Source: a virus. Taken from it: a stretch of DNA of 57,189 nucleotides. Every line of letters starts with the position of its first letter. Positions within the stretch are counted from its first letter, which is position 1. Shown piece after piece: positions 1-57,189 of this stretch. Below the pieces are notes generated by a model, which ran no database searches, was not told where the DNA came from, and saw only the letters and a program-made list of their open reading frames with translations. The position numbers and the translations under genes are program-made. The DNA lies in the IMG/VR virus record IMGVR_UViG_3300035703_000112, positions 1 to 57,189 of that record; one strand, written 5' to 3'.

Positions 1-148
1 GAGTTGTGCCATGTGGACAAGAGGGGGAGTCGGGGCATGGGTTGGGTATTGGTCGCGTCTATGTGTGTTCTCTCTCTCTATCTCTATGTGTTTGTTTTGA
101 TTGATTAATAGGGGGGGGAAGTGTTAACATAATATTTGGTAAATAATG
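1..148. other. Non-coding left edge of the window
   Basis: No gene of its own is visible before 195. Bases 1-60 are unusually G-rich for this genome, 65-90 is a CT/GT low-complexity tract, and 111-118 is a run of eight G. The composition is unlike the rest of the window, so this could be a genome end, a regulatory leader or an assembly edge. If the window is a closed circle, the frame of the partial gene at the right edge stays open through here to a TGA at 98-100. Confidence 0.5.
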
Positions 149-179
149 TTTGTTTTTCCGGTAAACAACACTATGTTTG
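149..179 (+). promoter_or_regulatory. Bacteroidota-type promoter
   Basis: TTTG at 149-152, a 19-base spacer, then TATGTTTG at 172-179. This fits the Bacteroidota consensus TTTG-N19/20-TAnnTTTG. Transcription would start around 185, about ten bases before the ATG at 195, giving a very short leader. Confidence 0.65.
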
Positions 180-194
180 CATAAACATTAGAAA

Positions 195-407
195 ATGGAA
201 AAAGAAAAACAATTGCCAGCAGATGTAGACCTAACTGTTTGGGTGACTCAGCAAGCATTAGCAGACGAACTGAGCAAAACCATTCATACCGTACACAATT
301 GGGTTCAAAGGGGTAAAATTGAGTGGGGATACCTTCCCGGAAGTAGTATTAAGCTTGTAAACAAGAATACAGTATCTATCAACTTCAATCATTACAAAAA
401 CAAATGA
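195..407 (+). CDS. Small HTH DNA-binding protein (excisionase/MerR-like)
   Basis: A 70-residue protein. Its centre (VTQQALADELSKTIHTVHNW) reads as a helix-turn-helix like that of excisionase or MerR-type helix-turn-helix domains, followed by a short wing-like stretch (YLPGSSIKLV). It contains little beyond the HTH, so it probably binds DNA as a small regulator or recombination directionality-like factor. No integrase is visible, so a regulatory role for the plus-strand early genes seems likelier. It is the first gene after the promoter at 149-179, and its stop overlaps the next start (ATGA). The fold is inferred from pattern only. Confidence 0.6.
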   Translation: MEKEKQLPADVDLTVWVTQQALADELSKTIHTVHNWVQRGKIEWGYLPGSSIKLVNKNTVSINFNHYKNK

Positions 408-577
408 TTAAACAACTTAAAAACAACTGGGCTATTTTTTTATTAATTGCAACTTGCATTTATATAATGTCCCTGTCTAGCATAAGGGCGGAAAAAGCTG
501 AAAAAGAAGTAAAAAAATACAAAAATTACTTAGACTCATTGAATTTGACTAACGAATCAATGCGAAATAAAAAATAA
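404..577 (+). CDS. Small membrane protein with coiled tail
   Basis: A 57-residue ORF starting at the ATGA overlap with the HTH gene, which suggests translational coupling. Residues about 9-24 are hydrophobic (WAIFLLIATCIYIM), a single membrane span. The rest is a charged, probably helical tail rich in Lys and Glu. It resembles small phage membrane proteins of unknown role, and no family was recognised. Coding status rests on the tight spacing and the clean membrane-plus-tail layout. Confidence 0.5.
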   Translation: MIKQLKNNWAIFLLIATCIYIMSLSSIRAEKAEKEVKKYKNYLDSLNLTNESMRNKK

Positions 578-581
578 TAAA

Positions 582-704
582 ATGGCTGAAATTATGATAT
601 GTCTAATCGTAGCAGTAATAGTGTCTTATGCTTGGGCAAACGCAATAGATAAACAAAACAAAAATTTCCCAGACTACAAAGGAGATGACTTTCTTGAATA
701 CTAA
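582..704 (+). CDS. Very small membrane protein
   Basis: A 40-residue ORF four bases after the previous stop, with the A-rich ATAAA-ATG start context typical of this genome. Residues 4-19 form one hydrophobic helix (IMICLIVAVIVSYAWA), followed by a polar tail. Function unknown. It is supported mainly by position in a compact gene string. Confidence 0.45.
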   Translation: MAEIMICLIVAVIVSYAWANAIDKQNKNFPDYKGDDFLEY

Positions 705-712
705 ATAAACAA

Positions 713-892
713 ATGATGATTAAGATTATCGACCCGCCATCTGGATGGCTTTATGGATTCCCAAAAGAAATACCAGAAGATATTAAAGATGTAAGAGGGT
801 GGCTTGTTCAGAATGGTTACCCAATGGAAGAACTAGAGGCATTTGGTGATACATTTACATATAGATGCTGGTATGAGGGAGATGATGATTGA
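713..892 (+). CDS. Hypothetical small acidic protein
   Basis: A 59-residue ORF with a tandem ATG start at 713/716, lying between the small membrane gene and the ThyX pair. It has a Pro/Gly/Trp-rich N-terminal half and an acidic end (EGDDD). I do not recognise it. The compact spacing favours a real gene. Confidence 0.45.
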   Translation: MMIKIIDPPSGWLYGFPKEIPEDIKDVRGWLVQNGYPMEELEAFGDTFTYRCWYEGDDD

Positions 893-951
893 TGATTGTC
901 AGCATGTAAGCTTACAAACTGACAAAATTCGGAAAATCGTAAATCTATACT

Positions 952-1765: not shown

Positions 1766-1769
1766 AAGA

Positions 1770-4832: not shown

Positions 4833-5059
4833 TTTTCTAATTTTTGATAGTTATCAATTGTTAATCCAAGTTCTGATATAAGAGTTTGTACTATAGGGAA
4901 GTCGTTGAGTATTTTAGTGGCTTGCAAATTTATCTTAAATATCTTCTTAGCCATTTCATCAGAAACTTCCCCTTCCACACCAGTAATTAAGTTTTTATAC
5001 TTACTATCTCCTAAGTACTGGTATAATTGATTGTTTTGTATGTTTCTAACTATTGCCAT
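4829..5059 (-). CDS. Conserved small phage protein of replication operon
   Basis: A 76-residue protein. The N-terminal half (NNQLYQYLGDSKYKNLITGVEG) resembles a short beta motif often seen in small phage proteins near replication genes. The C-terminal half (VSDEMAKKIFKINLQATKI) is helical. It is packed between the SSB-like gene (four-base overlap) and the 5059-5313 gene (one-base overlap). Molecular function unknown. Confidence 0.55.
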   Translation of the reverse strand: MAIVRNIQNNQLYQYLGDSKYKNLITGVEGEVSDEMAKKIFKINLQATKILNDFPIVQTLISELGLTIDNYQKLEK

Positions 5060-5334: not shown

Positions 5335-7182
5335 TTAGAAGTTTATATCTGTTTCAGGAAATTCTCTCCATATTTCTTGTGGAGTGAAATCATTTTTTTC
5401 CTGCATCTTAGATTTTTTAGCAAATAATGGGTCGCAAGGCATTTCGCTGTTACTATTAATATATCTCTTTTTAGCCCAGTTTAGTGTTAAAGGGAAGTGC
5501 CCAAGTTTACCCCCTGTTCTTTTCCTTTTAAGTTTCTGGACATAAACCTCAACATCTGGGCTATTCTTATCTTCATGAAATCTTGGCCTATAATAAGCTA
5601 AAATTTGGTCAGACTTATTAGCCCACATACTACCGCCATGCAAATCGTAACTATCTGGTACTGGAAGTGAACGGTCTTGATTATATGTTGGGTTTTTAGG
5701 ATGAGCAATTATGCAGTAAGATATATTATTCAATAAAGCGAATCTTTTGATATCTTTAAGTATTGTACTAAGATACTGGTCATCTCTTTCATATGCCTTT
5801 TGAGTCCTATCTAATTGATTAAATGGGTCAATCATAACTCCATCAATTCCTTTTTTCAAAATAAGATATCTAAACTTCTCATGTATAGAATTTATGTCAT
5901 GCTCGCTTTCTGGATAAACATAATAGATATGCTCAGAAATAAAATTACAAGCCTCTGTATATTCATCTACTGTCATATCCTTTAACCACTTCCCGGCATA
6001 CATCTCCACGATATCATCATAAAAGTCATTTGGAGGATAATTCTCAGGAGAAAATATCGCCCACTTCCAACCATCCCAAATAGATTTAGTAATCATCAAT
6101 TGAAGCATAAAAAATGATTTGCCATGATTACCGTACCCAGTACACAAAGTAATATCTCCCTTTTTCCATCTGAAGAAATCATCCATTTCACCAAACCTTG
6201 TCGTTGGTGCAAGTTGAACTCCTTCTTTAAAAGATTCCAGCATATCAGGGAATATGCTTTCTAAGTAATAAACACCATCTACAGGAATCAAGTTGGATTC
6301 AAGTAATATTTTTATTACCTCGTCCTTGCCATATTTAAGCAATACTTCATTTAAATCTTTACAATCATTTGGATATTCAACTACTCGACATTTCTCAACT
6401 CCAAGCCTTCTAACTAATTCATCTTTCAATTTTCTACCAGCATCATCTGAGTCAGTTGCAATGATAAATTCATCAATAGAAGACAACCATTCGCTACAAT
6501 TATCAAGATATTCTAATTGTTGGTTTCCTTTACTTGCACCATTTGGAACTGATAATACAGCCCACCTTCCAAGTTCGTGCTCTACCACTTCTCCATCATC
6601 ATTTGGTTCTGGTTCATAATTGTTTCCAAAACCACATTCATATGCAACTAACATATCCCATTCGCCTTCAGTTATAATAGCGCAATGTCTTCCCTCAATA
6701 GTTTGCATACCAAAGAATATCAATTCAGCATCTTTAATCAATCTAAAGTTTTTAGCTCCATCTCTATACTTTGCATTTACAATTTGGGAATCTCTTATAT
6801 ATGGGAAAACAATACAACGCTCTTTTTTCTGTGTCGCTGGCATCCATTCTTCTTTTCCATGTATGAAGAATTTTTTTAATGTTTCATGTGAAACACCACG
6901 ACTTTCAGAGTATGCAACGATACGCTCATTCAACTGAATATTTTCGAGCATTGATTTATCCGGCCTAGAATATTTTTTTGACGATTCCCGGCGTTCAAAA
7001 GATTTTACGTTTCCACGCCAACCACAATGATGGCAATTGTAAGTTCCCTCAGTTACATTAACTGACAAACAAGGGTCTTTTTTATTTCTGCGGGAATCTG
7101 AGCACTTTGGGCACACTGTTTTTTCCTGTCCACTTCTTCTTCGGATTTTGATATCAAGTTTAGTAAGCTGGTTGTAGTACAT
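5335..7182 (-). CDS. DNA primase-helicase (T7 gp4/Twinkle-like)
   Basis: A 615-residue two-headed replication enzyme. An N-terminal zinc ribbon uses C24, C27, C50 and C53. A TOPRIM primase core has ITEGEWD around residue 172 and TDSDDAG around 242, with an acidic insertion between them. The RecA-type hexameric helicase domain has Walker A GYGNHGKS near 347-354 and a Walker B-like stretch (GVMIDPFNQ) near 445. It would make RNA primers and unwind the fork, as T7 gp4 does. No phage DNA polymerase is present in the window, so it probably works with a host polymerase or one encoded elsewhere. The C-terminus (PETDINF) is acidic and could bind partners. Confidence 0.92.
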   Translation of the reverse strand: MYYNQLTKLDIKIRRRSGQEKTVCPKCSDSRRNKKDPCLSVNVTEGTYNCHHCGWRGNVKSFERRESSKKYSRPDKSMLENIQLNERIVAYSESRGVSHETLKKFFIHGKEEWMPATQKKERCIVFPYIRDSQIVNAKYRDGAKNFRLIKDAELIFFGMQTIEGRHCAIITEGEWDMLVAYECGFGNNYEPEPNDDGEVVEHELGRWAVLSVPNGASKGNQQLEYLDNCSEWLSSIDEFIIATDSDDAGRKLKDELVRRLGVEKCRVVEYPNDCKDLNEVLLKYGKDEVIKILLESNLIPVDGVYYLESIFPDMLESFKEGVQLAPTTRFGEMDDFFRWKKGDITLCTGYGNHGKSFFMLQLMITKSIWDGWKWAIFSPENYPPNDFYDDIVEMYAGKWLKDMTVDEYTEACNFISEHIYYVYPESEHDINSIHEKFRYLILKKGIDGVMIDPFNQLDRTQKAYERDDQYLSTILKDIKRFALLNNISYCIIAHPKNPTYNQDRSLPVPDSYDLHGGSMWANKSDQILAYYRPRFHEDKNSPDVEVYVQKLKRKRTGGKLGHFPLTLNWAKKRYINSNSEMPCDPLFAKKSKMQEKNDFTPQEIWREFPETDINF

Positions 7183-8865: not shown

Positions 8866-9361
8866 TGTTGAAATATTTAAATGGGTCGTTGTCGTCTAAT
8901 ATCTTTTGAAAAAAATCTGGAATGCGAGATGTTTCTTTTATGTCTGGTGATATCATGATGAATCTATCTATAGCCTCTTTGAATATTGGCATTTTTCTCG
9001 CTGCATCCCAATTGCTATCGTAAGTTCCATGACAATTGCACCACTTCCCTAAAATCATATAATTGAGACGGTGTGTAGATACTGATGGGAATATAGACTT
9101 AGGTAGAACATGTGCTATGCATGCATGCCAATCTTGTTTATTGTAGTGGGCGAGAGATTCGCCACAATTCCAGCATTGCTTGTCTTCCCGGGCCATAATA
9201 CCCTCATACCACTTTTGTAGTTCGGAGGGAATTCCTGCCTCTTTAAATTCTAATTCTTTGGCAATCTTTTTTGCTGACTTTTTAGGGATACTATAAACCT
9301 TCTTAGGTTTATCTGGTTTCCCATTAAGTTTTTGATTGAAGCGTTGTTCTAGGTAACTCAT
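8855..9361 (-). CDS. HNH-like zinc-finger nuclease-type protein
   Basis: A 168-residue protein with a basic N-terminus (residues about 15-35, Lys-rich) and a compact metal-binding centre: CWNCGESL, then IAHVLPKS, RLNYM and KWCNCHGTYD. C-x2-C followed by H...N...C-x-CH is the layout of HNH/treble-clef endonucleases. It could process replication or recombination intermediates, as NinG-like phage proteins do, or be a free-standing HNH enzyme. It is the first gene of the minus-strand operon, with the promoter at 9366-9397 almost touching its ATG. Confidence 0.6.
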   Translation of the reverse strand: MSYLEQRFNQKLNGKPDKPKKVYSIPKKSAKKIAKELEFKEAGIPSELQKWYEGIMAREDKQCWNCGESLAHYNKQDWHACIAHVLPKSIFPSVSTHRLNYMILGKWCNCHGTYDSNWDAARKMPIFKEAIDRFIMISPDIKETSRIPDFFQKILDDNDPFKYFNNEN

Positions 9362-17735: not shown

Positions 17736-17755
17736 AAAATATATTAATTTTGGGT

Positions 17756-44900: not shown

Positions 44901-47900
44901 GACTCCGTATTGCTTGGTAACTACAATGAGAATGGCGCAGGATTCGAACATATTGTTAAAACTGGTTCTTTCGAAAATGCTAAAGAAGCAATTAAGCTTC
45001 TGAAAGACAATGAGTTGCAGTATTTTAGCGTTGACAAAAATAGCGGAGATGTCATTATTCTTGACCTTGAAGCAACAGATACACCAAAAATTATTAACTT
45101 AGTCAAACAATTAAATGAAAATGGAATCCCAGCAAAACACAAGTATGGCAAAGTCAACGCAGAATTCATCGGTAGCGGAGACTATGATGGAATTATTGAA
45201 GCAGAGCGGAGCAGAGTTGGAGCAGAAACAGGGTTCGATATTGATGCCTTTGTCCAAGAAGCAGCGGGAAAATATGACGCAATCAAAGCAGCAAGAACCC
45301 AACCAGTAGTTTCTGAAGTTCAAAAATCTATCGCCGACAAAATTCGTGGGCTAAAGATTGATTTGTCTAAGCTGGGAGAAGGTGGCGCTCAGTCCAACAT
45401 AGCAGGACTTCCCGTAGCACTATACAACACCGTAGTAGAAGCAGTAGCCCTTGCTGTAGAGGCGGGAGTGGCTGTAAATAAAGCAATTAATGATGCTGTA
45501 AAACAATATAAGCTAGATAAGGCTAAAGATTTTGATAAAGATGTACTTACAAGGGAAATATTGAAAGGCATTGAAATAACTGAACCTCAAGTAAATCCTG
45601 TATATTTTGAAAATCTGAAAAAATTTGCAAGTGAATCTTCATTTGACAATAAAATTCAATTTAAAAATTCAATACAGAGTTTATTTGCCAAATACCTTCC
45701 AGAACTAAAGGCTAAGTTTGGTAAAGATTTTGACCCGTCAAATTACGACGAAAGAGCAAGAAAGTATTTGGTTGATTTGGTTACTAGGGAATCTTTGAAT
45801 GCAATCAAAAAGCATCCGGAAGCAATTGGATGGTATGATGAGAAGACTCAGTCTGCATTAGATGTCATATCGGCTATTCATCCTGAAATCGCCACTGATG
45901 CTGAAGCTAGAGGTGCATTTATATTGCCTTTGGCTATTATGTCAAATGGAAACAAAGTAGACTTCAATTTTGAATTGGCTGAAAAGCAATATCAATTCTT
46001 TAAAGATAATGGAAGGTTTAATCCTGATGGGGAATTTGGCCTTCAGCAATCTGGCATTAAAAAATCTTTGATGCTTATCAATTCGTTACTTGATAACGGA
46101 TTGACAATGTCAGATATAAATAAATTCTTGACATCAAAGTATCGAGCTGGTGATTTGAAAATAAAGATTGATGGTAAGGTTAAGGATTTGGCTTCAGGTG
46201 AATTGGCTGATGAGCAAGTTTATGGAGCTGTTATTTTAGGTCCAAAGATTGGTAATGGGTTTTATATGAATTTGTGGGGTCAATTCGACCAATTGACCAT
46301 GGACAGATGGTTTATGCGTACTTGGGGTCGGATGACAGGCACATTGATTGAGAAAGATGCTGCTGGTATCGCTGAAGGGAAGAAGAGACTTTCTAAGGCT
46401 CTTGATGAGATTAAGAAAGATTCTGAGGCATTGGCTATATTAAAATCATTATTGCCTAAAATATCTAGCTTATCAATTCAGGATTTAGCAAAGTCTATTG
46501 AGAAAGTTTCGATGGATAAAAAGAAGAGAGCTGAACTTTCTTCAAATCCAAAAACTGACGAATTAAGGAAGGCTGCCAATTCCCTGTCTAAAAATCTTAG
46601 CGGCGAGAAGGAAGCTCCTTCTACTGGTAAAGAAAGAAGATTCATAAGGGAAGTGTTTACTGATGTAGTAAATGATTTAAAAAATAAATATGGTATAGAG
46701 ATATCTATGGCTGACCTTCAGGCAGCTCTTTGGTATCCTGAAAAAATATTATATGAATCTTTCAAAGGCGGCGAAACATTTGAGGCTGCTGCTGAAGGTT
46801 ATACATCTGATTCTGCACCTGATTATTTAAACGCGGCTAAAAAGCTAGCCACAAAACTTGGAGTAAATGAAGAACAAATCAATCAAGCCTTATCAAGAGG
46901 AAGAGAACGTGCTGAACGAATTGCAGGAGAAGGATATCCCGAAGGCGGGCGAGCAATTAGCGAATCTTATCAAGACATCCTTGGAAGAGTCAAAGAAGCA
47001 ATCGGGGAAAAGCCAGCCACAGAAAAAGTAAGAGCAGCGGCTAAAACAGTTCGTTCTCTTAAGATTAAGCAAGAAGGTCTTCAGGCAAATATTGCGGGAA
47101 TTCCCATCGCACTTTATAACGCAGCCTTGGAAACAATCGCTACAGCTTTGGAGGCTGGGGCTAGTTTAACAGATGCTATTCGGGAAGCTATAAGAAAGCA
47201 CAAACTTAATAAGCAAAAAGATTTTGATTCTGATACATTCGTAAAACAATTAGAAAGCGTTACTGGTCAAACAGTAGAAAAAATAGGAGGTAAATATGCC
47301 ATTCAAATCGAAGCAGCAGGTGAAGTTCCTGTACAGCCAAAAGCCGGAGTTAGCGAAGAAGTGGAGGGAGGAGTTCCCGGAGCAAAACCTAAAGCAGCTC
47401 CCGAAGAAGGTAAAGCTGAAGGTGAAGAAGAAAAAGTAAGGGTATCTGGTATTAAGAAGGGCTTGGTTTCCCAAGAAGTATTATCAAGAGTAAATCTTAA
47501 TACAGTTGGAGATAAGGAGCTTTTAGAGTCGGGAAAAGCTATCATTGAAAGCGGGGAAGTAAAGCCAAAGACTGTTGTCAATCGTGTAATTGATGGTGGT
47601 CAAGGTGTCCTTACCCCTGCTGAGGTAGTCGCGATGATTACTTATAAGGCTGATTTAGATACTAAACAAGAAGACCTTTCTAAAGAAATTGAAAGAAGAA
47701 CAAAGGCTGGGGAAGACTTGGGTGACCTTTTGGTTGAATACAAGGACTTGCAGGTCGAAATAGACAACTACGACATTGCAGCTGTTATCACAGCTCAGCA
47801 ACAGTCATTAGCATTCCGTCTTCGCAGATATCTTCTTGACAGAGAGTACAACATTACTGTACAAATTAATCGTTATAAGCAAACAAACGGCGGGACAATC

Positions 47901-50642
47901 CCTGAATCTGTACTCGCTAAGTTTAAGAAGCTTAATGAAACGATAAAGGATTTGCGTAAGAAGATTAAGGAGGCTGAATCGGCTAAGTATGAAGAAGATT
48001 CTAAGGCTGCTATGCAAAACATCATCGAAGATGTAGAGCGTGAAAATCAGGCTAACGGTCCTAAATTATATACAGAGCAAGAGCTCGAGAATAAAATTAG
48101 AGAAGGAGTTCAGAAGGAAATTGATGGTATCTACGAAAAGATGCCAGCTGAAAAGAAAAGCAAAGCTCAACGGGTTGTAGATGCTCTCGATAATATTCAA
48201 CGTAAACTTCGTAGTAAGACATATGATGCTAGCTTAGGAGTTCCCGTAGCTTTCATTGATGCGGGAATTACTGCAATTAAGAATGCTATCAAGCTTGGTA
48301 TAGAAGTAGAGAAGGCTATTGAGATTGGAATTAAAACAATCAAGGATAAGCTCAATGGTGCTAAGTGGGATAAGGAGGCTGACTTCCGTAAGGATATGAT
48401 GGAAGGTTTTAAAGAGGAAGGAGTTGATGTTAAAAAAACAAAAGAAGTAAAGGCTAAGATTAATGATGATGGTACAATAACAATTCCCAACAAAGACATC
48501 CGTGATTTTGTATCTCAGGGAATTGAAGACATTGATGATTTGGCTGATGCTATATTAAATAAGTATCAAGCAGAACTTCCCGGCGTATCATCAAGACAAG
48601 TAAGAGATGCCATCACTAAGTATGGTAATGAATTATACCAAACAAGAGATGATATTTCAATAAAGCTTGGAAGAGCAAAGAGAATTGGAAGACTGCTTTC
48701 AGAGCTTGAGGATTTAAGGACTATGGATAAGGGTGCTTTCCTTTTGAAATATCAAAGAGTTAAGCCAGCCCAAGACAAGATATCTGAAAGAGAGAAGAGT
48801 CTGAAATATCTTATTCGTGAATTGGGGCGGGAAATTATGGGCGATGAGCCACTTCCCGACAACTATAACGAGCAAAAAGCCCTTGATACCGCCAAGAATA
48901 GAGTCGGTCGTAGAATCGAAGAACTTAGAGACAAAATCAGAAGAGGAGATTTCTCTAAAAAGCAAAAACGCAAAGTTCAGGCTGACCAAGAACTTCTTGA
49001 CCTTGAATCTCAACTTGAAGACGTTAAGTCTAAATATGATTTGGAGCACGAAAAGAATGAGCAAAAGAATAAGAAGTGGTATCAGAAAGCTGGCGATTTC
49101 GTATTAGAATTATTTAGCGGAATACCAAGAACATTGGTTACTGGTTTTGACCTTGGTATCATATTTACTCAAGGTATGATGAGGGTGTTTACTAATCCCG
49201 TAATGTCTGCAAAAGCATTATGGGAGGCTGGTAAGCAGTTCTTTTCAGAATCTAGACAAATAAGAATGGAGCAAGAGCTTAAATTATCTGGTGCTTATGC
49301 CTTGATTAAGAATTCTGGTCTTGCAATATCGGAAGGGTCTGAAAAAGCATCTGCTCAAGAACAGATATTTATTGTCAATTATGTAAACTTAATTTGGGAT
49401 ACATTCTCAAGAGTAATAACATTAAATTATAAGCCGGGAACTGCTTTTGTAAAAGCATTAAATCCTTTCAAGGCTTCCCAAAGATTCTTTGATGGCTACT
49501 TAAATTATATAAGAATAAATTCATTTCTTAACCTGTCAAATGCTATTGATAAAAATGGATATACTCCGGAAACGTATCCTGATGTTTACAAAGCTGCTGC
49601 TGAATTTGTAAATACTACTACTGGTAAAGGAGCAAAGAACATTCCAAAATCTCTTGGTTTATTAATGTTCTCTGCATCTAAAGTTGCTTCTGAGCTTAAG
49701 TTGTATACTCCTTATGCATTATATTATTATGCTGCAATGCCTAAGGCTGTAAGGAATAGGGCTATGCTTAACTTTGGAAAGTTTGCCTTGAGTTTTGGGA
49801 CAACTATGTTCTTGATGAGAGCCGCACTTGGCCAAGGTCAAGGCGGCGAAGATGATGATGATTTTTGGGACCCTACAAGTAGCAATTTCCTTACTTTCAA
49901 ATTTGGAAATCAAAGGGTATCATTTGCTGCTGGAGCTCGCCCAACCATTGTGTTTATGGCTAGATTGTTTAGTGGGAAGTATATTGACCAATATGGTCAA
50001 GAATCAAAATTGGGCGAGAGAACTGGTAAGCAAATTAATACTGAGTTCGACCTTATTGTTAGGTTTTTTACTGCGAAGGCAGCTCCAGTTCCCGCAGTTG
50101 CTATAAAATACTTGGATAAGAAGGCTGGTGTAGAAGTAGAAGATGATGTATTCAAAAATCTTGTTCTACCCATGTGGCTTCAGGATTCACAAGAACTTTA
50201 CGCTCAAAATCCTAAAGAAATAGGCGCATTGTATACTTTCATTTCCCTAGTCGGTGCTAACGTAAGAACGGTTGAAGAGTATACACAAAAAGAGCATAAA
50301 ATGCCTCAGAAGATTTCTTATACAGATGATTATAGTAGAAAGAGGGAAGTCGTGTTGACAGATGAGCAAAAAGCTGACTTCCAAAAAATGTTTAACGAAA
50401 AGTTCAAAAAGAATATTGACGATATACATAATTCAGAAACGTATAAAAAGCTTGAAAGCAAAAACGACAAAATATTGTTCGATGTTGTTTATGGCAAAAA
50501 AGCAAAAGACGATGCTGAATCTGATGCAAAGAAGGAGCTGATTAGAAAATATCGTGGTCCATTCAGTGAATTCCCAATAATACGAGAAACCCCAGAAGAG
50601 AAAGAAATAAATAGAATTCTGAACAGAGGCGAAAAGCGGTAA
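41973..50642 (+). CDS. Giant multidomain internal virion (polyvalent) protein
   Basis: A 2889-residue protein, the largest gene by far. Residues 18-41 and 50-73 are tandem short repeats (KVYDILSSNFEDFK / KVYKVLKDNFADFE). About 290-360 is a Gly/Ala membrane-interacting stretch. About 669-790 is a PARP/ADP-ribosyltransferase-like domain (GFHRTNVDVQSILKNGF, KFGYGVYFTREP) flanked by direct DNA repeats. Three related roughly 80-residue segments lie near 1119-1199, 1685-1761 and 2062-2146 (IAGLPVALYN / IAGIPIALYN / LGVPVAFIDA). A domain around 1275-1480 has GPKIGNGFYMNLWGQ and TMDRWFMRTWGRMTG. The C-terminal part (AAALGQGQ-like, LVLPMWLQDSQELY) resembles polyvalent giant proteins. Such proteins are packaged and injected to protect or reprogram the cell. 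Individual activities are inferred. Confidence 0.8.
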   Translation: MAENTYTGQNEDPKYRKKVYDILSSNFEDFKLSESDFYKKLDSDTGYAPKVYKVLKDNFADFEKPEKDFMSLVGPSKKKDLFGKITTSVGQLQKEAGKALGGVKKGLETVAAAAAEYEKPVLRTAGPVPTEVAPAKELEPIVKPSVGIVSESTKVPKIDIKAVQQQKAYEKKIADETPKETPYFGGVLGSTLQAIDSEYSPIGQLGVGDFIDDMGRAIASGVNQGDITTPANALLLAGKNASPEQIRKYIDAAKDYEKIGASEEMMKFSKTYQDEGKTIYGFLKGLAQNPGVVGELIVSSVTALANPSSLAAAGAVTGGFATSGAVGGGAPGAAAGAISSIPWAIGAAGTALETGLTFSELLNDKLKEKNLEFTEENVKSILEDEKTLKDIRTKSLARGVTIGAIDALTGRLAGKVGAKLASNTAASRVKAGLAASGIEMAGGSIGEASGRLVAGQPMDVAEIGLEGIAEGPMAIADVTSEVLRRPIYKVNGENRTEADVQEIINTSSPEELSQINIDIKNDVKGYKNKIQDIVTNNEMRNEIRQANPKADDATIDTLLKLENELKTFENNKTQSGKERASSIRSQIKQIQEEVSQKQEVVKPAGEVPQQTLLEQISKRIEEIDAEERGAAGEVAPEVPAAPKEITEPVTVVETQDLYKGLPISNVNGTGFHRTNVDVQSILKNGFVVPNQGRAKFGYGVYFTREPKETSFGENMVSSNFEGLKMVDLTNDDIIGDKFNAFNNAFTENGTIDYKKLTEELKANGIDGVITDNEIVVFDPSKIKNIKEYKAGEIAPEVPAAPTAAAPVPSIIEVKSPKEVKQGDTIVWRGEDFIVEEVNPKGGFNLRNAADRTNTVKDARITDEEFQGKRGEVAAAPKVEKFGVGFAPFREKNVFTEEEDVDIRTSPDYQLHQENVQKVAQGLGIKINNKLDTWGGYVDMETGRPVQEVSNIMEIEATPEQARVMAAILGKAAPEMQDSVLLGNYNENGAGFEHIVKTGSFENAKEAIKLLKDNELQYFSVDKNSGDVIILDLEATDTPKIINLVKQLNENGIPAKHKYGKVNAEFIGSGDYDGIIEAERSRVGAETGFDIDAFVQEAAGKYDAIKAARTQPVVSEVQKSIADKIRGLKIDLSKLGEGGAQSNIAGLPVALYNTVVEAVALAVEAGVAVNKAINDAVKQYKLDKAKDFDKDVLTREILKGIEITEPQVNPVYFENLKKFASESSFDNKIQFKNSIQSLFAKYLPELKAKFGKDFDPSNYDERARKYLVDLVTRESLNAIKKHPEAIGWYDEKTQSALDVISAIHPEIATDAEARGAFILPLAIMSNGNKVDFNFELAEKQYQFFKDNGRFNPDGEFGLQQSGIKKSLMLINSLLDNGLTMSDINKFLTSKYRAGDLKIKIDGKVKDLASGELADEQVYGAVILGPKIGNGFYMNLWGQFDQLTMDRWFMRTWGRMTGTLIEKDAAGIAEGKKRLSKALDEIKKDSEALAILKSLLPKISSLSIQDLAKSIEKVSMDKKKRAELSSNPKTDELRKAANSLSKNLSGEKEAPSTGKERRFIREVFTDVVNDLKNKYGIEISMADLQAALWYPEKILYESFKGGETFEAAAEGYTSDSAPDYLNAAKKLATKLGVNEEQINQALSRGRERAERIAGEGYPEGGRAISESYQDILGRVKEAIGEKPATEKVRAAAKTVRSLKIKQEGLQANIAGIPIALYNAALETIATALEAGASLTDAIREAIRKHKLNKQKDFDSDTFVKQLESVTGQTVEKIGGKYAIQIEAAGEVPVQPKAGVSEEVEGGVPGAKPKAAPEEGKAEGEEEKVRVSGIKKGLVSQEVLSRVNLNTVGDKELLESGKAIIESGEVKPKTVVNRVIDGGQGVLTPAEVVAMITYKADLDTKQEDLSKEIERRTKAGEDLGDLLVEYKDLQVEIDNYDIAAVITAQQQSLAFRLRRYLLDREYNITVQINRYKQTNGGTIPESVLAKFKKLNETIKDLRKKIKEAESAKYEEDSKAAMQNIIEDVERENQANGPKLYTEQELENKIREGVQKEIDGIYEKMPAEKKSKAQRVVDALDNIQRKLRSKTYDASLGVPVAFIDAGITAIKNAIKLGIEVEKAIEIGIKTIKDKLNGAKWDKEADFRKDMMEGFKEEGVDVKKTKEVKAKINDDGTITIPNKDIRDFVSQGIEDIDDLADAILNKYQAELPGVSSRQVRDAITKYGNELYQTRDDISIKLGRAKRIGRLLSELEDLRTMDKGAFLLKYQRVKPAQDKISEREKSLKYLIRELGREIMGDEPLPDNYNEQKALDTAKNRVGRRIEELRDKIRRGDFSKKQKRKVQADQELLDLESQLEDVKSKYDLEHEKNEQKNKKWYQKAGDFVLELFSGIPRTLVTGFDLGIIFTQGMMRVFTNPVMSAKALWEAGKQFFSESRQIRMEQELKLSGAYALIKNSGLAISEGSEKASAQEQIFIVNYVNLIWDTFSRVITLNYKPGTAFVKALNPFKASQRFFDGYLNYIRINSFLNLSNAIDKNGYTPETYPDVYKAAAEFVNTTTGKGAKNIPKSLGLLMFSASKVASELKLYTPYALYYYAAMPKAVRNRAMLNFGKFALSFGTTMFLMRAALGQGQGGEDDDDFWDPTSSNFLTFKFGNQRVSFAAGARPTIVFMARLFSGKYIDQYGQESKLGERTGKQINTEFDLIVRFFTAKAAPVPAVAIKYLDKKAGVEVEDDVFKNLVLPMWLQDSQELYAQNPKEIGALYTFISLVGANVRTVEEYTQKEHKMPQKISYTDDYSRKREVVLTDEQKADFQKMFNEKFKKNIDDIHNSETYKKLESKNDKILFDVVYGKKAKDDAESDAKKELIRKYRGPFSEFPIIRETPEEKEINRILNRGEKR
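43863..44376 (+). repeat. 37-bp direct repeats flanking the ART-like domain
   Basis: The segment beginning GCCGGGGAAGTCGCACC at 43863-43899 is repeated at 44340-44376 with one difference (36/37). Both encode an AGEVAPEVPAAP-type linker. The distance of 477 bases is a multiple of three, so recombination between copies would remove exactly 159 codons containing the ADP-ribosyltransferase-like domain and keep the frame. Confidence 0.85.
45327..48411 (+). repeat. Three related ~80-residue segments in the giant gene
   Basis: Segments at about 45327-45570, 47026-47255 and 48156-48411 encode related peptides: KIRGLKI/TVRSLKI/NIQRKLR, then IAG- or LG-type turn, P-V/I-A-L/F-Y-N-type helix, AxEAGxxxxxAIxxA/I, K-hydrophobic, and DFD/DFR with an E/K-rich end. 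They separate the larger domains, as spacer or anchoring modules would. Confidence 0.6.
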
Positions 50643-50691: not shown

Positions 50692-51219
50692 ATGCCATTA
50701 GTTCCCAATTTTTCAACTAGTCAATCAGCGGGGAGCCCTTCTGTTATAACTATAACTGATACGTCCACGGGAAGTGATGTTGCTGTTACCCAGCGCCGTG
50801 TCTATCTTTTGGACTGGCAGGGAAATTATGTCGTTCCTTCAGGTACTACTACTAATTACATTCAATGGCCTATCGCACAAGCGACAATTAATATTGATTG
50901 CTTGACTCAAGATATGGCTTTGGAGGTGACCGTTGAATGGTTGAACGTAAGCAATGTGGCTTTGTATGATAAGACTGAATTGGTAGGATTTACTCTTTAC
51001 AATGAGACTTTCTACTATGCCCTGACGCAAGCACAAGCTGCTGCTTCAACTCCCACAACTATCCTACAAGATACGTCATTCCTGCAAAATAAGTCTAATC
51101 TTCGTTTGTTTATTGATAGCGGGAATCAAGCAGTCACGCTGGGATACGATATCGTATCTGCTCAGCAGTGCTATAACTTGGCTACCAACTTAAATACTAA
51201 CCAAGACCTCTATTACTAA
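50692..51219 (+). CDS. Conserved Bacteroidota-phage structural protein A
   Basis: A 175-residue protein opening MPLVPNFSTSQSAGSPSVIT, followed by DTSTGSDVAVTQRRVYLLD, a beta-rich start that recurs as a conserved block in Bacteroidota phage genomes, paired with the next gene. The remainder has strand-like IDCLTQDMALEVTVEW. A virion-associated role is likely from its neighbours; the exact place in the particle is unknown. Confidence 0.6.
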   Translation: MPLVPNFSTSQSAGSPSVITITDTSTGSDVAVTQRRVYLLDWQGNYVVPSGTTTNYIQWPIAQATINIDCLTQDMALEVTVEWLNVSNVALYDKTELVGFTLYNETFYYALTQAQAAASTPTTILQDTSFLQNKSNLRLFIDSGNQAVTLGYDIVSAQQCYNLATNLNTNQDLYY

Positions 51220-51740
51220 TGCCACTAACAGTAGCTCAAATAATTGACATTGGGAAAATATCTCAATACCTCGCTCAGAATGATGTTCTGAAGGGAAATC
51301 TTTTCTCTCCTCCTGTGGCTAGAACTACGCCGCAGATTCTTTATTTAGAGCGAAAGGCGGTAGAATGGATGTACAATATTGACCCAGCGAACACTTCCCT
51401 TGTACAAACCTCTCAATATCTATACAGCCTTTGCAGAGGATATAATTTACAAGCACAACAAATTTCGGGAACTGCTGGTGCAATATCTCCAGTCGTTCCT
51501 GCGCAAATTCCAAATCCATATGATTTTGAGGTAGATGCAACTTCCCTGATTACAAATGGGCAGTCTAGCGTCACATTAAACGCATTTATCGGATTCAACG
51601 TATTGTTTGTTCGGAATGGTATTCCTCAATCTACCATAAATACTGGGGGAAGCTATTACTCTTGGGTAAAAGCTACAGGAGTATTTACCATTTCCCCAGC
51701 GGCGGTAACAGGTGAACAATTCCAAATTTATCCAGTATAA
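51219..51740 (+). CDS. Conserved Bacteroidota-phage structural protein B
   Basis: A 173-residue protein (PLTVAQIIDIGKISQYLAQND; LYLERKAVEWMYNIDPANTS), helical first half and a strand-like second half (FEVDATSLITNGQSSVTL). It overlaps its partner by one base and precedes the long fibre by two bases. These two proteins are usually adjacent in phages of this kind, implying a joint role, perhaps fibre attachment. Confidence 0.55.
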   Translation: MPLTVAQIIDIGKISQYLAQNDVLKGNLFSPPVARTTPQILYLERKAVEWMYNIDPANTSLVQTSQYLYSLCRGYNLQAQQISGTAGAISPVVPAQIPNPYDFEVDATSLITNGQSSVTLNAFIGFNVLFVRNGIPQSTINTGGSYYSWVKATGVFTISPAAVTGEQFQIYPV

Positions 51741-51742: not shown

Positions 51743-54700
51743 ATGAAGAAATTATTTTTACTTGTTCTGGGTTTAATTGTTTTCAAATTTGGGTACTCTC
51801 AGTACCCAATTCAGCAATTTATTGGGGCTGATAGCGCTATTGTTACGTCCAAAGGAGCTATGCAGAGTCGCTTTGTCAATGTTGTCTTTACTGACACTTC
51901 CCAAGCCAACACACAACGCATACGCCAATATCCCGGTGCTATGATTTATGCTGCTGGGAAGATGTGGGTCAGAAATACAACAGCTACTGGATGGACTGAA
52001 CTCGCTTATGGGCCAATATCCACAACAAATATTTACAATTCAAACGGAACATTGACGGGGAATCGTGACTTAGATGGAGGTGGTTATAATTTAACATTTA
52101 GTAGTATTGGAGGGGAATTCGGAGTTGGTGCTGATAGTATAAATTTTGTTCCAGCTTCGGGTAAATTTAGAATAAGTAGTTTAAATCAGGGAATAGGCTC
52201 TAAAGCTTTGAGATATGACCCAGTAACAAAACTTTTGTCTTATTCTGATACAACTAGTTCCCTAAATATCTACAATTCAGATGGCACACTAACAGGGAAT
52301 CGTGAACTGGATGGTAATAGCAATAATCTTACTTTCACAGCAGTAAAGAAATTTGAATTTTCTGGAGATAGCCTTTATTATATTCTTGACCCAGCGGGTA
52401 ACTTAAGGATAAAGCTCGGTAATCAGCAGCTTACAATGCAGGGGGACACGGCTTCCCTTTCTAGAAGAATATCTTACACGGGAAATCTTGGTTCTTCATT
52501 TACTAAACATAGCCTTGTAGACAAAAATTATGTGGACAGTATTGGTGTGTTAAGCCCTACAGGTTCGGGAACTACCAACTACGTTTCAAAGTGGACAGGT
52601 TCTACTGCATTGGGGAACTCACAGATATTTGATAATGGAACGAGTGTAGGAATTGGAACTGCGACTCCGAGTGCATCGTATTTGTTAGATGTTTCTGGAG
52701 CTTCAAGAATTAGTGGTAATACATATTTAGCTACTACTTCACAAACTTCACTAAACATTGGGAGTTCAAATTTTAGTGGAACACTTTGGACAGGCGGAAG
52801 TCATATATTTATTGGGTCATCTGCTAAAATATATGGTTCAACTGGGGCTGATGCTTCAATCGGTTCTAATTTATATTTTGATGGTTCTGCTGATAGAAGA
52901 ATCAGAGCCGGATTTGTTTCTGATATTTATTTTGATGCAAATGGTGATATAAATTTTAGAAGTGCTGGAAATGGTACTGCTAACTCAACATTAACTGCAA
53001 CAACAAATGCCGTAATCAAAAATAATGGCAATTTTTTAATTGGTAGCACAGTTGATGGCGGTTTCAAACTTTCAGTCACAGGCACTTTCCGTTCTACCTT
53101 AGATGCCAACATAAACGGATTGACAGTAGGTAAAGGAGGGGGAAGTGTTAGTGATAACACCGCTTTTGGTTATCAAGCAATCAACGGCACTTCAACTGGA
53201 ACATCAAACACAGCCATCGGATATATTGCGTTAAAAAGTTTAACATCAGGTTCATACAATAGTGCACTCGGTCTTAATGCTGGTAACTCACTAACCACTG
53301 GAAACCAAAACGTATTTTTGGGCTCTTATGCTGGTGGGAGTTTTACAACACAATCAAACAACGTAGCAATTGGATATTACTCGATGGTTAGCGCTACGTC
53401 AGCAGATTTCAATACTGCTATTGGTCATTCAGCATTTCAAAATACAACAAGCGCCGGAGGGGGTGTAGCGGTTGGATACCAAGCATTAAATGCAAACACG
53501 TCTGGAGATTACAATACTGGAATCGGTTACCAATCCTTACGAAGAAACACAACCGGAGCATACAATACAGCGATAGGGCATAGAACTTTGGATGCAGCGA
53601 TTACCGCAACTGGTAATACTTCTATCGGTTGGGCATCATTGATAAATGCAACTGGAGGATACAATACTGCAATAGGTAAAAATGCTGGTTATAGTACAAC
53701 TACTGGCACTTACAACATTTTCATAGGCGCAGACCCATCGTTGTCTTCTGGTAATGGTATCACAACCGGGAACTACAACACTATCATCGGTTCACAAATA
53801 ACAGGTCTCTCATCTTCCCTCTCCAATACAATCATATTAGCAGATGGACAAGGGAATCAGAGGTTGTATATTAACTCAAGTGGATATGCGGGTATTGGTA
53901 CTACTTCTCCGATTTCTCGATTATCTAATACTAACACTCAAATAACTGATGGTAATAACGGAACAAGTTTTAGCGGGATTCAATGGTCTTTAAGTGATGG
54001 AGGATATGCTTCTGCTATAAGCAATACAAATGCTTCTGCTACTGCTCACGGTCTTTTAGTTAAAGCATCTGGCGGTAGCCCATTAACAGTACAAGCGGGT
54101 AACACAACAAGATTTGTTGTTCTTCAAAATGGTAATACACTCATCGGCACAACCACAGATGCAGGCTACAAGTTAGATGTCAACGGTACTGCGAGAGTGA
54201 GTGCAGCAACAGGGAATGCTGATTTTAGTTTTTCAAGTGGCGGTAAGTTTAGAATAAGCAACAATAACTTTGCAAGCACACATTTTGAATATAATGCAAC
54301 AACAGCAACGACATCAATATATATATTCAGCACAAATAACGGAAACATAAGGAGTGATGGCTCTGGTATTTTTTACATAGGTAGTGGTCAAGATTTAAGA
54401 TTACAATCTGGTGGTTTTGCAAGTTCAAATGCTCAATCGTTTTTGATAAAAAGAAACGACCCCAATGCAACAAATGCTGTTGGGTTAGAAATAAATGATG
54501 GAGGTGCAACACCACACGCAAACTACAAACCATTTGTTGTAAAAATAAACAGTGTAGAACAAACACATTTTGACCAATATGGTGGGGGGCATTTTGGCAC
54601 ATCAACAAGTGTTTCATCTGCTATACTTTCAGCCACAAGCACAACAAAAGGTTTCCTACCTCCGAGGCAAACCCAAGCACAACGCACCGCCATAACTTCC

Positions 54701-54784
54701 CCAGCGGTCGGATTGATTGTATATCAAACGGATGCGACTGAAGGTTTGTATATTTACACCTCAACTGGATGGGTACAATTATGA
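51743..54784 (+). CDS. Long tail/host-recognition fibre with signal peptide
   Basis: A 1013-residue fibre. It begins with a host-style Sec signal peptide (MKKLFLLVLGLIVFKFGYSQ), unusual for a virion protein. Residues about 90-215 carry two copies of an IYNSNGTLTGNR / IYNSDGTLTGNR stalk motif. Residues about 470-685 contain YadA-like head repeats (NTAIGYIALKSLTSGSYN, NTAIGHRTLD), the spiral-like beta repeats of trimeric adhesins. The end (GFLPPRQTQAQRTAITSPAVG then LIVYQTD) resembles C-termini of Bacteroidota surface proteins. Likely contacts the host. Confidence 0.72.
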   Translation: MKKLFLLVLGLIVFKFGYSQYPIQQFIGADSAIVTSKGAMQSRFVNVVFTDTSQANTQRIRQYPGAMIYAAGKMWVRNTTATGWTELAYGPISTTNIYNSNGTLTGNRDLDGGGYNLTFSSIGGEFGVGADSINFVPASGKFRISSLNQGIGSKALRYDPVTKLLSYSDTTSSLNIYNSDGTLTGNRELDGNSNNLTFTAVKKFEFSGDSLYYILDPAGNLRIKLGNQQLTMQGDTASLSRRISYTGNLGSSFTKHSLVDKNYVDSIGVLSPTGSGTTNYVSKWTGSTALGNSQIFDNGTSVGIGTATPSASYLLDVSGASRISGNTYLATTSQTSLNIGSSNFSGTLWTGGSHIFIGSSAKIYGSTGADASIGSNLYFDGSADRRIRAGFVSDIYFDANGDINFRSAGNGTANSTLTATTNAVIKNNGNFLIGSTVDGGFKLSVTGTFRSTLDANINGLTVGKGGGSVSDNTAFGYQAINGTSTGTSNTAIGYIALKSLTSGSYNSALGLNAGNSLTTGNQNVFLGSYAGGSFTTQSNNVAIGYYSMVSATSADFNTAIGHSAFQNTTSAGGGVAVGYQALNANTSGDYNTGIGYQSLRRNTTGAYNTAIGHRTLDAAITATGNTSIGWASLINATGGYNTAIGKNAGYSTTTGTYNIFIGADPSLSSGNGITTGNYNTIIGSQITGLSSSLSNTIILADGQGNQRLYINSSGYAGIGTTSPISRLSNTNTQITDGNNGTSFSGIQWSLSDGGYASAISNTNASATAHGLLVKASGGSPLTVQAGNTTRFVVLQNGNTLIGTTTDAGYKLDVNGTARVSAATGNADFSFSSGGKFRISNNNFASTHFEYNATTATTSIYIFSTNNGNIRSDGSGIFYIGSGQDLRLQSGGFASSNAQSFLIKRNDPNATNAVGLEINDGGATPHANYKPFVVKINSVEQTHFDQYGGGHFGTSTSVSSAILSATSTTKGFLPPRQTQAQRTAITSPAVGLIVYQTDATEGLYIYTSTGWVQL

Positions 54785-55341: not shown

Positions 55342-55351
55342 ATAAAACAAA

Positions 55352-55720
55352 ATGAAAAAAGCAATCATTACCCTTTTTCTTGCCTTTGGCTATGGTGCAA
55401 ATGCACAAACTATTGACAGCACTGTAACTAGTATTACAGCCGTTTACATTCAGCCCATCAAGGCTCAATTTACGGATTCCCTAATGTCAACAAATCTTGG
55501 TGTGCGGGTTATCGCAGATGACCTTAAAACAACCGCAACACTTTATTGGTGTTTGCTTATGTCAAATGGCGCTATATCTGTTCAGGGAAATTATACTATG
55601 ACGGGAGATGATTATACTGCTTGGTGTGCTGCTTCAAACCCAGTTCCTTGTAACATTTGGCCATTCACAGTAGTTGGTCGCGTATATAATCTTACATTTA
55701 TCAATCCATTAAATAAATAA
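55352..55720 (+). CDS. Secreted protein of unknown function
   Basis: A 122-residue protein with a clean signal peptide (MKKAIITLFLAFGYGANAQ) followed by a Thr-rich beta region (TIDSTVTSITAVYIQPIKAQ; TTATLYWCLLMSNGAISVQG) and Cys residues near the end. It may coat the phage or be exported. No enzymatic motif. It sits between the fibre/endonuclease and lysis-type genes. Confidence 0.5.
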   Translation: MKKAIITLFLAFGYGANAQTIDSTVTSITAVYIQPIKAQFTDSLMSTNLGVRVIADDLKTTATLYWCLLMSNGAISVQGNYTMTGDDYTAWCAASNPVPCNIWPFTVVGRVYNLTFINPLNK

Positions 55721-55739
55721 CCAAATAAAATTAAACAAA

Positions 55740-55991
55740 ATGAAAACTGCAATTAAAATTTCCATCTCGCTTTTTGTAATGATTGTTGTATTATCATCTT
55801 TTAGTAATTTTACGAAGGGAAATGACGCTACAACTTTGAAGTTTGAATTTACTACGGATGAGGTAAATCTCATATTTGAAGGACTAGGAGAACTTCCCGC
55901 AAAAAAATCAGAGGGTTTGAGAGTTAAAATTTATCAATCAGCACAGGAGCAACTGAAAGCGCAAGAGCAATCAGTTCCCAAGAAAAACTAA
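55740..55991 (+). CDS. Small membrane or exported protein
   Basis: An 83-residue protein with an N-terminal hydrophobic segment (ISISLFVMIVVLSSF, 7-21), followed by an acidic helical region ending in a Gln/Lys-rich tail (YQSAQEQLKAQEQSV). Topology suggests a membrane-anchored helix. Context of lysis-type genes gives a possible holin/antiholin or spanin-associated role, not provable from sequence. Confidence 0.45.
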   Translation: MKTAIKISISLFVMIVVLSSFSNFTKGNDATTLKFEFTTDEVNLIFEGLGELPAKKSEGLRVKIYQSAQEQLKAQEQSVPKKN

Positions 55992-56000
55992 TAAATAAAA

Positions 56001-56183
56001 ATGGATACTCCAGCATCAGTAGGTAACGCACACGCAAGTTTGTTTATATCAATTTTTACTGCTGCGGTATCATTTGCTGATGCCGGGGAAGCCATGAAAA
56101 GTTTAGCCGGGCTTATTTCAATTGTGGCTGGAGTTATGGCAATTCGTTACTACTATCACGCAACTAAAAATGTAAAAAAATGA
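56001..56183 (+). CDS. Holin-like small membrane protein
   Basis: A 60-residue protein with two hydrophobic helices (ASLFISIFTAAVSFA and LAGLISIVAGVMAIRYYYH) separated by a short acidic loop and a basic end (ATKNVKK). The layout is that of a small holin or membrane-permeability protein. Directly overlaps the next membrane gene by four bases. Confidence 0.5.
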   Translation: MDTPASVGNAHASLFISIFTAAVSFADAGEAMKSLAGLISIVAGVMAIRYYYHATKNVKK

Positions 56184-56497
56184 ATTATACGAATTTAGTC
56201 CTGTTTGCTTTAGGATTGTTTGGAATTTTAATCCATAATCTAATTAAGGTTGATACAATCAATCGCCAATCTGAGGGTAACTTTAAATTCAAGAAATTTA
56301 TTTCTTTGGAATGGCCATCAATCGCCATCAGCTTTTCAGTAGTTGGTGTATGCTTGATTGCCAAACACGAAGTAAAACAACTTGAAGAAGTAGGGAACTG
56401 GCTCGGCTTGGCCTTCGTTACAATCGGGTACACGGCTCAGTCAATTGTATACAAATACTTAGGAACTGCTGAAAAGAAAATAAAAGGCGATGCATAA
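56180..56497 (+). CDS. Multi-span membrane protein, holin-like
   Basis: A 105-residue protein with three hydrophobic helices (LVLFALGLFGILIHNLI; WPSIAISFSVVGVCLIA; WLGLAFVTIGYTAQSIV) and a basic C-terminus (YLGTAEKKIKGDA). It overlaps the spanin-like gene by eight bases and probably forms a lysis cassette with its neighbours. No sequence family is certain. Confidence 0.5.
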   Translation: MNYTNLVLFALGLFGILIHNLIKVDTINRQSEGNFKFKKFISLEWPSIAISFSVVGVCLIAKHEVKQLEEVGNWLGLAFVTIGYTAQSIVYKYLGTAEKKIKGDA

Positions 56498-57023
56498 TCG
56501 TGGGCTACTATATCTTATCATTTCAGTAACGTGTTTTTTCATTGCAACCAGTTGCAATACGGAAAAACGTCTTCAGAAAGCAGAGGTATTGTTAGCTTCA
56601 AAGGGCCGTCTCTCAGAGATTTGTGCGGATAGATTTCCTCCTAAAGATTCAATAGTATATAGGGATAGTGTTAAGTGGGACACGTTATATGAGGGTATTT
56701 ATAGTATTGATACTATATATGATAATGACACCGTAAAGGTGTTTTTGACACTTCCCGCCAAAATCATAACAAAAGAAGTAGTAAAGTATCGTGATATATA
56801 TAGAGAGAACACAGCTAAAGTAAAAGAACTGGAAGGTAAATTGTCTGTTTGCAGTTTGCAATCTGCAAATTATTCAATAGAGTTAGTAAAATTAAGAGCT
56901 GAATCTAGTAAATGGGAAAAGCTGGCTAAACAAAGATGGTGGTTCTTATGGATTTTAATTTTATTGGCTGTCGGATTCACGATGAGAAAAAAAATATTTA
57001 ACCTATTAAAATTATTCATATGA
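56490..57023 (+). CDS. Rz-like spanin lipoprotein candidate
   Basis: A 177-residue protein with a signal segment ending in a Cys (LIISVTCFFIATSC, Cys22), a possible lipobox. A long charged coiled-coil-like region follows (EKRLQKAEVLLASKG; TAKVKELEGKLSVCS) and a C-terminal hydrophobic helix (WWFLWILILLAVGF). A lipid anchor at one end and a membrane span at the other is the unimolecular-spanin layout that links both membranes during lysis. It overlaps its neighbours in the lysis-type group. Unimolecular form is inferred. Confidence 0.6.
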   Translation: MHNRGLLYLIISVTCFFIATSCNTEKRLQKAEVLLASKGRLSEICADRFPPKDSIVYRDSVKWDTLYEGIYSIDTIYDNDTVKVFLTLPAKIITKEVVKYRDIYRENTAKVKELEGKLSVCSLQSANYSIELVKLRAESSKWEKLAKQRWWFLWILILLAVGFTMRKKIFNLLKLFI

Positions 57024-57189
57024 AATACTTCCCTGCTGTAATCGTATTGTTAGTTGCTTTTTTATTTACATATTTTGGGTTCTTTGAGACTCAAGCTTGT
57101 GATTTAGATGCAGTTTATCTTAGCTGTAGACTTAATCCGTTTACTGCTTTCGATTTAATTGGATGCTTGTTGTTTTATGGTGGATGCGT
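57020..57189 (+). CDS. Partial membrane protein at window end
   Basis: Begins at an ATGA overlap with the spanin-like gene (MKYFPAVIVLLVAFLFTYFG) and is cut by the right edge after about 56 residues. Two hydrophobic stretches are visible, with Cys residues in between. Function unknown; probably a lysis-group member. Confidence 0.45.
   Translation, partial: MKYFPAVIVLLVAFLFTYFGFFETQACDLDAVYLSCRLNPFTAFDLIGCLLFYGGC

Follow-up and report, generated by a model that had tools for sequence, protein, structure and literature searches.

The window analysed here is a single virus record, IMGVR_UViG_3300035703_000112 of IMG/VR, which is 57,189 bases long and is 96% covered by our own open reading frame (ORF) calls. 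Among its genes are a T7-type primase-helicase (5335-7182, minus strand), a small LuxR-type helix-turn-helix protein with a GerE Pfam match (9531-9755, plus strand) and a terminase about 26% identical to that of a Flavobacterium elemovirus. The distant kin of this phage are phages of Flavobacterium, Cellulophaga and Maribacter, and because of this kinship a Bacteroidota host is likely. Dispersed through the window is the heptamer GGGAAGT, together with its complement ACTTCCC, which exceeds what the genes require by five to nine times on both strands and in every reading frame.

An exact count over the whole window gives 28 copies of GGGAAGT and 30 of ACTTCCC, 58 in all, compared to 4.2 expected from base composition. 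A previous sequence-only reading of this DNA had reported 57 copies, roughly equally divided between the orientations, against about five expected; the excess, the strand balance and the expectation agree with our counts, and only the figure of 57 needs correction. Similarly, 24 of the 25 different positions it quoted are exact, while the copy placed at 56749 in fact begins at 56750. The exact plus-strand matches to GGGAAGT lie at 116-122 (ahead of the first called ORF, which begins at 195), 2242-2248, 4896-4902, 5492-5498, 10760-10766, 17084-17090, 17548-17554, 19041-19047, 26077-26083, 29115-29121, 29721-29727, 30854-30860, 32101-32107, 33550-33556, 36111-36117, 37640-37646, 37682-37688, 38417-38423, 39170-39176, 40452-40458, 43867-43873, 44581-44587, 46648-46654, 47554-47560, 49974-49980, 50344-50350, 50769-50775 and 53140-53146. 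The minus-strand copies, read as ACTTCCC, lie at 2159-2165, 4965-4971, 5988-5994, 9043-9049, 11018-11024, 12402-12408, 14123-14129, 17690-17696, 23273-23279, 24451-24457, 27959-27965, 28780-28786, 32213-32219, 32634-32640, 34017-34023, 35405-35411, 36986-36992, 37517-37523, 39071-39077, 44682-44688, 45407-45413, 48575-48581, 48851-48857, 51393-51399, 51540-51546, 51896-51902, 54695-54701, 55892-55898, 56750-56756 and 57027-57033. Both strands are represented in 10 of 12 5-kb bins. Judged against base composition, ACTTCCC is the most over-represented 7-mer of the window and CACTTCCC the most over-represented 8-mer. The pentamer core GGGAA/TTCCC occurs 279 times on the two strands between positions 1 and 57189, with random spacing (mean gap 205, coefficient of variation 1.0), and these copies include 17 of GGGAACT and 18 of AGTTCCC, the related word (35 copies) whose recurrence had also been pointed out.

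Codon usage does not account for this excess. The 55 heptamers that fall inside ORF calls compare to a mean of 6.4 (maximum 14) in 500 rounds of a per-gene synonymous-codon shuffle, and to a mean of 10.0 (maximum 19) in 500 rounds of a shuffle that also preserves the dinucleotides at codon junctions. For the core, the 271 in-gene copies stand against 112.0 in the former and 134.6 (maximum 155) in the latter. Divided by coding-strand frame, GGGAAGT was found 3, 10 and 15 times where the per-gene shuffle gives 1.4, 2.4 and 0.8, and ACTTCCC 11, 2 and 14 times where it gives 0.8, 0.4 and 1.3. All six strand and frame classes thus exceed expectation, two of them with merely 3 and 2 copies, indicating that neither one codon pair nor one frame explains the heptamer. 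The remaining three copies lie outside ORFs or across an ORF edge. These results bear out the proposals that the word occurs in different frames and outside genes and that codon bias is not its cause, and the excess persists in just the kind of codon-preserving shuffle that might have abolished it. Under Markov models of order 1, 2 and 3 the expectation is 5.2, 6.2 and 12.2 copies. An order-5 Markov background, which had been suggested as a check, leaves an excess that is present but small (58 vs 47.4, z 3.3, 13th among 7-mers), because the pentamer inside the heptamer already carries the signal; GGGAA itself is found 279 times against 182.7 at its own maximal Markov order.

The anatomy of the word is graded. 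Iterative masking of the window showed that its five leading words all contain GGGAA, and single changes within the core of GGGAAGT reduce the count to 0.0-1.2 times expectation in 14 of 15 cases, the sole tolerated change being G to C at the first base (2.1 times, 6 vs 2.9). After the core, the sixth base is preferably G (8.0 times), then C (6.0 times), then A or T (3.3 times). At the seventh, T reaches 8.0 times and A and C about 3 times, and G is excluded (0.4 times). At the eighth, G gives 15.6 times and A and C about 8 times. The unit may therefore be written as GGGAA followed by G over C, then T, then G. Taken together, the frame counts, the shuffles and this graded preference support the earlier proposal of a DNA-level, codon-independent role.

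The word is restricted to one clade of phages. Of 26 loci found through the terminase, several of which are near-copies of one another, 22 show the heptamer enriched 6.5 to 12.7 times over base composition, compared to 0.7 to 1.2 times in the other four (L019, L023, L024 and L025). Over whole records, carriers show for example 86, 77 and 70 heptamers against 12, 10 and 10 copies of the reversed word, compared to 2 vs 7 and 4 vs 7 in the non-carriers L019 and L025. A terminase tree of 29 rows places the window together with the 21 other carriers on one side of a single branch (support 96/92), with L019 and L025 as the nearest rows outside. Enrichment in sibling phages, which had been put forward as a check, is thus found, and all within this clade. 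The terminase match of one record, G416 (L020), was left out of the tree; it is interrupted by 8 stops in one frame, which makes a frameshift or an error of assembly likely. The L019 record has a different word, GGCGG (96 vs 33.3), and no strong word was found in the L025 record by word ranking. The second branch of the clade prefers the form GGGAAG(T/A), with GGGAAGTC found 52 times against 2.7 in seven pooled homologous loci, a ratio that is more informative than a z-score because the seven loci are related. Relative to the orientation of the terminase, the heptamers of three records of this branch show a strand imbalance of about 1:2 (22:48, 17:32 and 17:30 in G416, G405 and G410).

Between relatives the number of copies is maintained while their places change. 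Over the 43.8 kb that align between the window and G398 at 82% identity, 25 of 46 aligned heptamers are kept, where permuted control words are kept in 27% of cases. In two phages of the other branch, which align over 18-20 kb at 71% identity, 4 of 18 and 6 of 19 are kept, with 13% and 12% for the controls, and these two phages nonetheless hold 49 and 47 heptamers. Conservation of the bare core exceeds its control at 82% identity (0.65 vs 0.40), and at 71% it is merely 0.23 vs 0.22 and 0.30 vs 0.20.

Certain other words are missing altogether. The genes of the window contain no GATC, CCWGG, CTGCAG, AACGTT or GGTACC, where 148, 40, 20, 16 and 9 copies are expected, and the phage thus seems to be under strong selection to avoid restriction sites. 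The avoided set differs in the second branch of the clade, which is nearly without CCWGG (0 or 1 vs 19-45 expected) and in three records has about half the expected GATC (71 vs 136.5, 73 vs 134.8 and 68 vs 131.4).

As a control we ran the first 50 kb of phage P1 blind through the same ranking, and the E. coli Chi site, GCTGGTGG, came out as the top 8-mer (27 vs 3.2). On a common score for the top 7-mer and 8-mer, the clade scored 18.3 and 19.5 (window), 18.7 and 19.5 (G398) and 14.2 and 17.5 (G416). P1 scored 8.6 and 13.0, Panino 10.0 and 11.1, T7 7.2 and 6.5, Colly 7.8 and 7.9, elemo 6.8 and 5.3, phi38:1 5.5 and 6.5, Danklef 5.9 and 6.5, Ingeline 5.4 and 6.5, Gundel 5.9 and 5.2, and the phage contig G001:C11 8.4 and 6.8. 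At 7 bases P1 thus does not exceed the other phages by much, and Chi stands out at 8.

This comparison also brought out a pair of opposite signs in two Maribacter phages. CTGTG is the most enriched 5-mer of Panino (198 vs 91) and is depleted in Colly (19 vs 64, over 100 of 124 kb; L199 and L200), where only four of 494 words have a lower ratio, all four containing CCGG or GGCC; at a laxer cut-off it ranks 11 of 508, and by z-score 15 of 512. Colly is annotated as T4-like, with recombination genes of its own. The ratio for CTGTG lies between 0.88 and 1.12 in Ingeline and phi38:1 (Cellulophaga), Gundel (Tenacibaculum) and elemo (Flavobacterium), with Gundel and phi38:1 counted over part of the genome. 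According to Bobay et al. 2013 (PMC3784561), Chi is enriched in some phages and avoided in others: lambdoid phages that lack recombinases are enriched in it, as are those that have a recombinase without an inhibitor, while lambdoids that carry a RecBCD inhibitor avoid it. By the signs of CTGTG alone, the Panino and Colly pair resembles this pattern of enrichment and avoidance. The same work describes Chi as protecting against RecBCD and hence against restriction, so a phage that is cut by restriction enzymes is of the kind that would profit from Chi, a circumstantial link to the present phage.

We hypothesize, with about even confidence for and against, that a RecBCD- or AddAB-type enzyme of the host reads GGGAA-(G/C)-T-(G) as a Chi-like word. 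Such an exonuclease/helicase, acting from a double-strand end, would stop degrading the DNA at the word and pass it to RecA. The phage, lacking several restriction-type sites, seems exposed to restriction, and a word every few hundred bases on both strands could let its broken or linear DNA be spared, repaired or joined by the host, so that the benefit would be protection and recombination. Of the three roles the sequence-only reading had suggested, the Chi-like one is the best-fitting candidate. We hold somewhat more tentatively the wider proposal that the word of each phage lineage is the Chi of its host, namely GGGAA-GT in this clade, CTGTG-G in the Maribacter phages and GGCGG in the sister phage L019.

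Several observations weigh against the Chi-like reading, most of them from the search for a host. Neither word density nor DNA similarity identified a host for the phage among the Bacteroidota genomes searched. None of ten sampled Bacteroidota genomes, none of them established as the host, has a word with the GGGAA core; two of the ten have the overlapping word GGAAGTG, and the other eight showed no such word. The phage contig G001:C11 and its bacterial bin share no clear common word, the nearest being AAGCCC (90 vs 52 in one host contig), and G093 and G128, picked for their density of CTGTGGTG, have words other than CTGTG. Among phages sharing an accessory gene with the window, GGGAA exceeds z 4 in 4 of 158 loci (of 160, with two under 4 kb left out), all of them clade records, an outcome that a reader encoded by the phage would predict just as well. 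GATC is scarce in non-carrier relatives as well (2 vs 49, 4 vs 42, 1 vs 70, 0 vs 33 and 0 vs 35). As to the CTGTG pair, Danklef, a Polaribacter phage, likewise has few copies of the word (14 vs 28), the hosts of Panino and Colly are different Maribacter species (M. halichondriae and M. forsetii DSM18668), and Panino encodes Erf and an exonuclease. The last point is not decisive, because phages with a recombinase and no inhibitor also enrich Chi according to PMC3784561. Finally, no recombinase or Gam family was matched among the 50 of 73 window ORFs scanned with PHROGs; this would favour the Chi-like reading, but it is weak evidence, because the 57-kb record is possibly not the complete genome (the relative G398 reaches 70.6 kb).

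The genome searches themselves turned up other words. The word-density survey of 395 Bacteroidota genomes gave the outliers G186 and G375, which were sampled, and among 80 genomes of their family two further density outliers, G496 and G497, were found. In G375 the top 8-mer is GGGAAGTG (34 vs 6.7), yet the underlying word there is GGAAGTG, which is codon-independent in both G375 (99 vs 26.2; L117-L126) and G186 (55 vs 16.3; L111-L116), two genomes of one family. We take it to be a different word that overlaps GGGAAGT, because its first G is not needed and its last G is required, and it is a candidate Chi or other chromosomal motif. Five further genomes gave nothing clear, three of them (G214, G333 and G367) with less than 50 kb sampled each; G333 has 9 copies of GGGAAGT against 3.0 in 40 kb. 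A similarity search with a 9.6-kb piece of the window matched the related phage contig in G001; the best hit elsewhere, 33 bp in G259, lies at a gene end with no repeats around it, and 15 further genome hits were weaker still. For CTGTGGTG, the density outliers among the 395 genomes include G093, G128, G255, G019 and G302. In G093 (L205-L214), CCTGC/GCAGG occurs at twice the codon-shuffle expectation (937 vs 467 over 200 kb). In the available parts of the literature searched (including PMC6343036 and PMC7858055) we recognised no published Chi sequence for Bacteroidota, and none of the literature was recognised as concerning the GGGAAGT word itself.

The phage's own T7-type primase-helicase would be an obvious reader, since primase initiation sites would be expected on both strands, and in T7 the primase recognition site, GGTC, is mildly over-represented by our method (369 vs 280). 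This effect is 1.3 times, compared to 8-15 times for the window word. G416 keeps the GGGAA word (48 vs 9.4) with a primase only 32% identical to that of the window, whereas the primases of its three second-branch sisters are 66-67% identical. In the other direction, primases 56-70% identical are found in ten records outside the clade that show no heptamer excess over the reversed word, while clade members with primases 66-68% identical do carry it. The word and the primase thus do not travel together, which argues that GGGAA is not the primase recognition site; this explanation is largely refuted by the exchange in G416 and the ten primase relatives, and we regard it as highly improbable. A codon shuffle on 31 of 79 primase-relative loci found the word in L045 alone, a clade record, with other words scoring up to about 10 among these loci. 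GGTC is separately enriched in the window (227 vs 159, 1.4 times, rank 3 of 136 tetramers), where it is likely the signal of the primase, and it is possibly a shared primase site. Enrichment of GGTC was also seen in Panino (rank 1), elemo and T7, and not in three second-branch records. It is likewise very unlikely that host or phage uses GGGAA as a target for methylation or self-recognition, or that the word is a signal for packaging, roles which the sequence-only reading had also proposed. The phage does seemingly live under strong restriction selection; its restriction-type sites are avoided, however, with GATC at 0 vs 148, whereas the GGGAA word is enriched, and a Pfam or PHROGs scan covering 56 of the 73 ORFs matched no methyltransferase family, leaving that role without positive evidence. 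A packaging role is unlikely because the 58 copies are dispersed genome-wide on both strands and change places between relatives, unlike a pac or cos signal, which would be confined to a single fixed site or a few.

Such a word might also arise without any function, through mutation bias, base composition or the context of codons. The small order-5 Markov excess would fit this, as would G001:C11 (L161-L163), the related phage contig from a Sphingobacteriia bin. There, enrichment extends to many G/C-rich words together (CGGG 199 vs 79, GGGCT 83 vs 31, TACGG 99 vs 50), like a context effect, and no single word explains the counts. In the window, in contrast, one word dominates after masking and collapses with nearly every single change of its core, the heptamer total lies far above the junction-preserving shuffle with all six classes above the per-gene shuffle, and at 82% identity heptamers are conserved better than control words, so we consider this explanation unlikely. 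The main rival to the Chi-like reading is rather a DNA-binding or processing protein encoded by the phage, other than the primase, which would read GGGAA for compaction, replication or protection from nucleases, with the word changing as the protein changes. On the terminase tree a single change accounts for the distribution of the word, and the confinement of GGGAA to clade members among the 158 accessory-gene loci is predicted equally well by such a protein. In that set one further locus, L265, passes z 4 with the heptamer only (GGGAAGT 4 vs 0.65, GGGAA 11 vs 12.4), which we take as chance among 158 loci, and a scan with the GT17 gene returned four clade records only. Clustering in one clade would be expected whether its members have a host in common or encode the reader themselves. 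For a reader of the latter kind, the LuxR-type helix-turn-helix protein at 9531-9755 is the best candidate that can be named. It is present in both branches that carry GGGAA (83% and 62-64%), and no relative without the word was found to have it among those compared, although this absence is weak evidence because most of these were compared as fragments. GerE-type regulators usually bind longer dyads in promoters, and we know of no reader of a 5-7 bp word at a density of one core copy per 205 bp. The opposite CTGTG signs in the two Maribacter phages also point to reading by the host, and on balance we find a phage-encoded reader rather doubtful.

A few other features of the window are recorded here. 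A ThyX-type thymidylate synthase gene (1145-1765) is 95% identical in the near-copy L315, whereas neither G398 nor any other relative in the comparison has a match to it; it was probably acquired recently. At 14792-18067, glycosyltransferase genes (DUF5672/GT9, GT17 and GT2-like) adjoin a DUF6321 gene that has hundreds of relatives in viral contigs. No tRNA genes were found in the window.

If GGGAAGT is indeed a Chi word, it would be a candidate Chi for a host in a group for which no published Chi was recognised in the available parts of the literature searched, and it would have been recovered from a metagenomic phage contig alone by codon-preserving shuffles, with P1 as the positive control. 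Uncultured hosts would then also have a self/non-self signal open to testing, along with a means of linking phages to hosts. Should the word of each lineage be the Chi of its host, Chi could be read straight from the phage genomes of uncultured hosts. With a phage-encoded reader, on the other hand, the word would be a DNA code that extends across the genomes of a phage clade and has gone unrecognised.

Among known systems, the T7 primase site is alike in that the word is over-represented and the phage encodes a T7-type primase-helicase, and it differs in the size of its effect and in that the GGGAA word of the window is independent of the primase. DNA uptake sequences and KOPS/AIMS, which serve competence and segregation, are dispersed over-represented oligomers of chromosomes, and the word resembles them in its dispersal; in contrast to these, it has no strand polarity in the window and is mildly polar in the second-branch relatives. 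The AddAB-type Chi of Bacillus, AGCGG, is similar in having a 5-bp core and differs in sequence and, presumably, phylum. The closest likeness to our reading is Chi itself, GCTGGTGG, in P1 and, according to PMC3784561, in lambdoid phages without recombinases. Like a Chi site, GGGAAGT is a short, non-palindromic, over-represented word whose enrichment is codon-independent and found on both strands, and like these lambdoids the window has no recombinase match among the ORFs scanned. The candidate word differs from Chi of E. coli in its sequence and in its 5-bp core with graded flanks.

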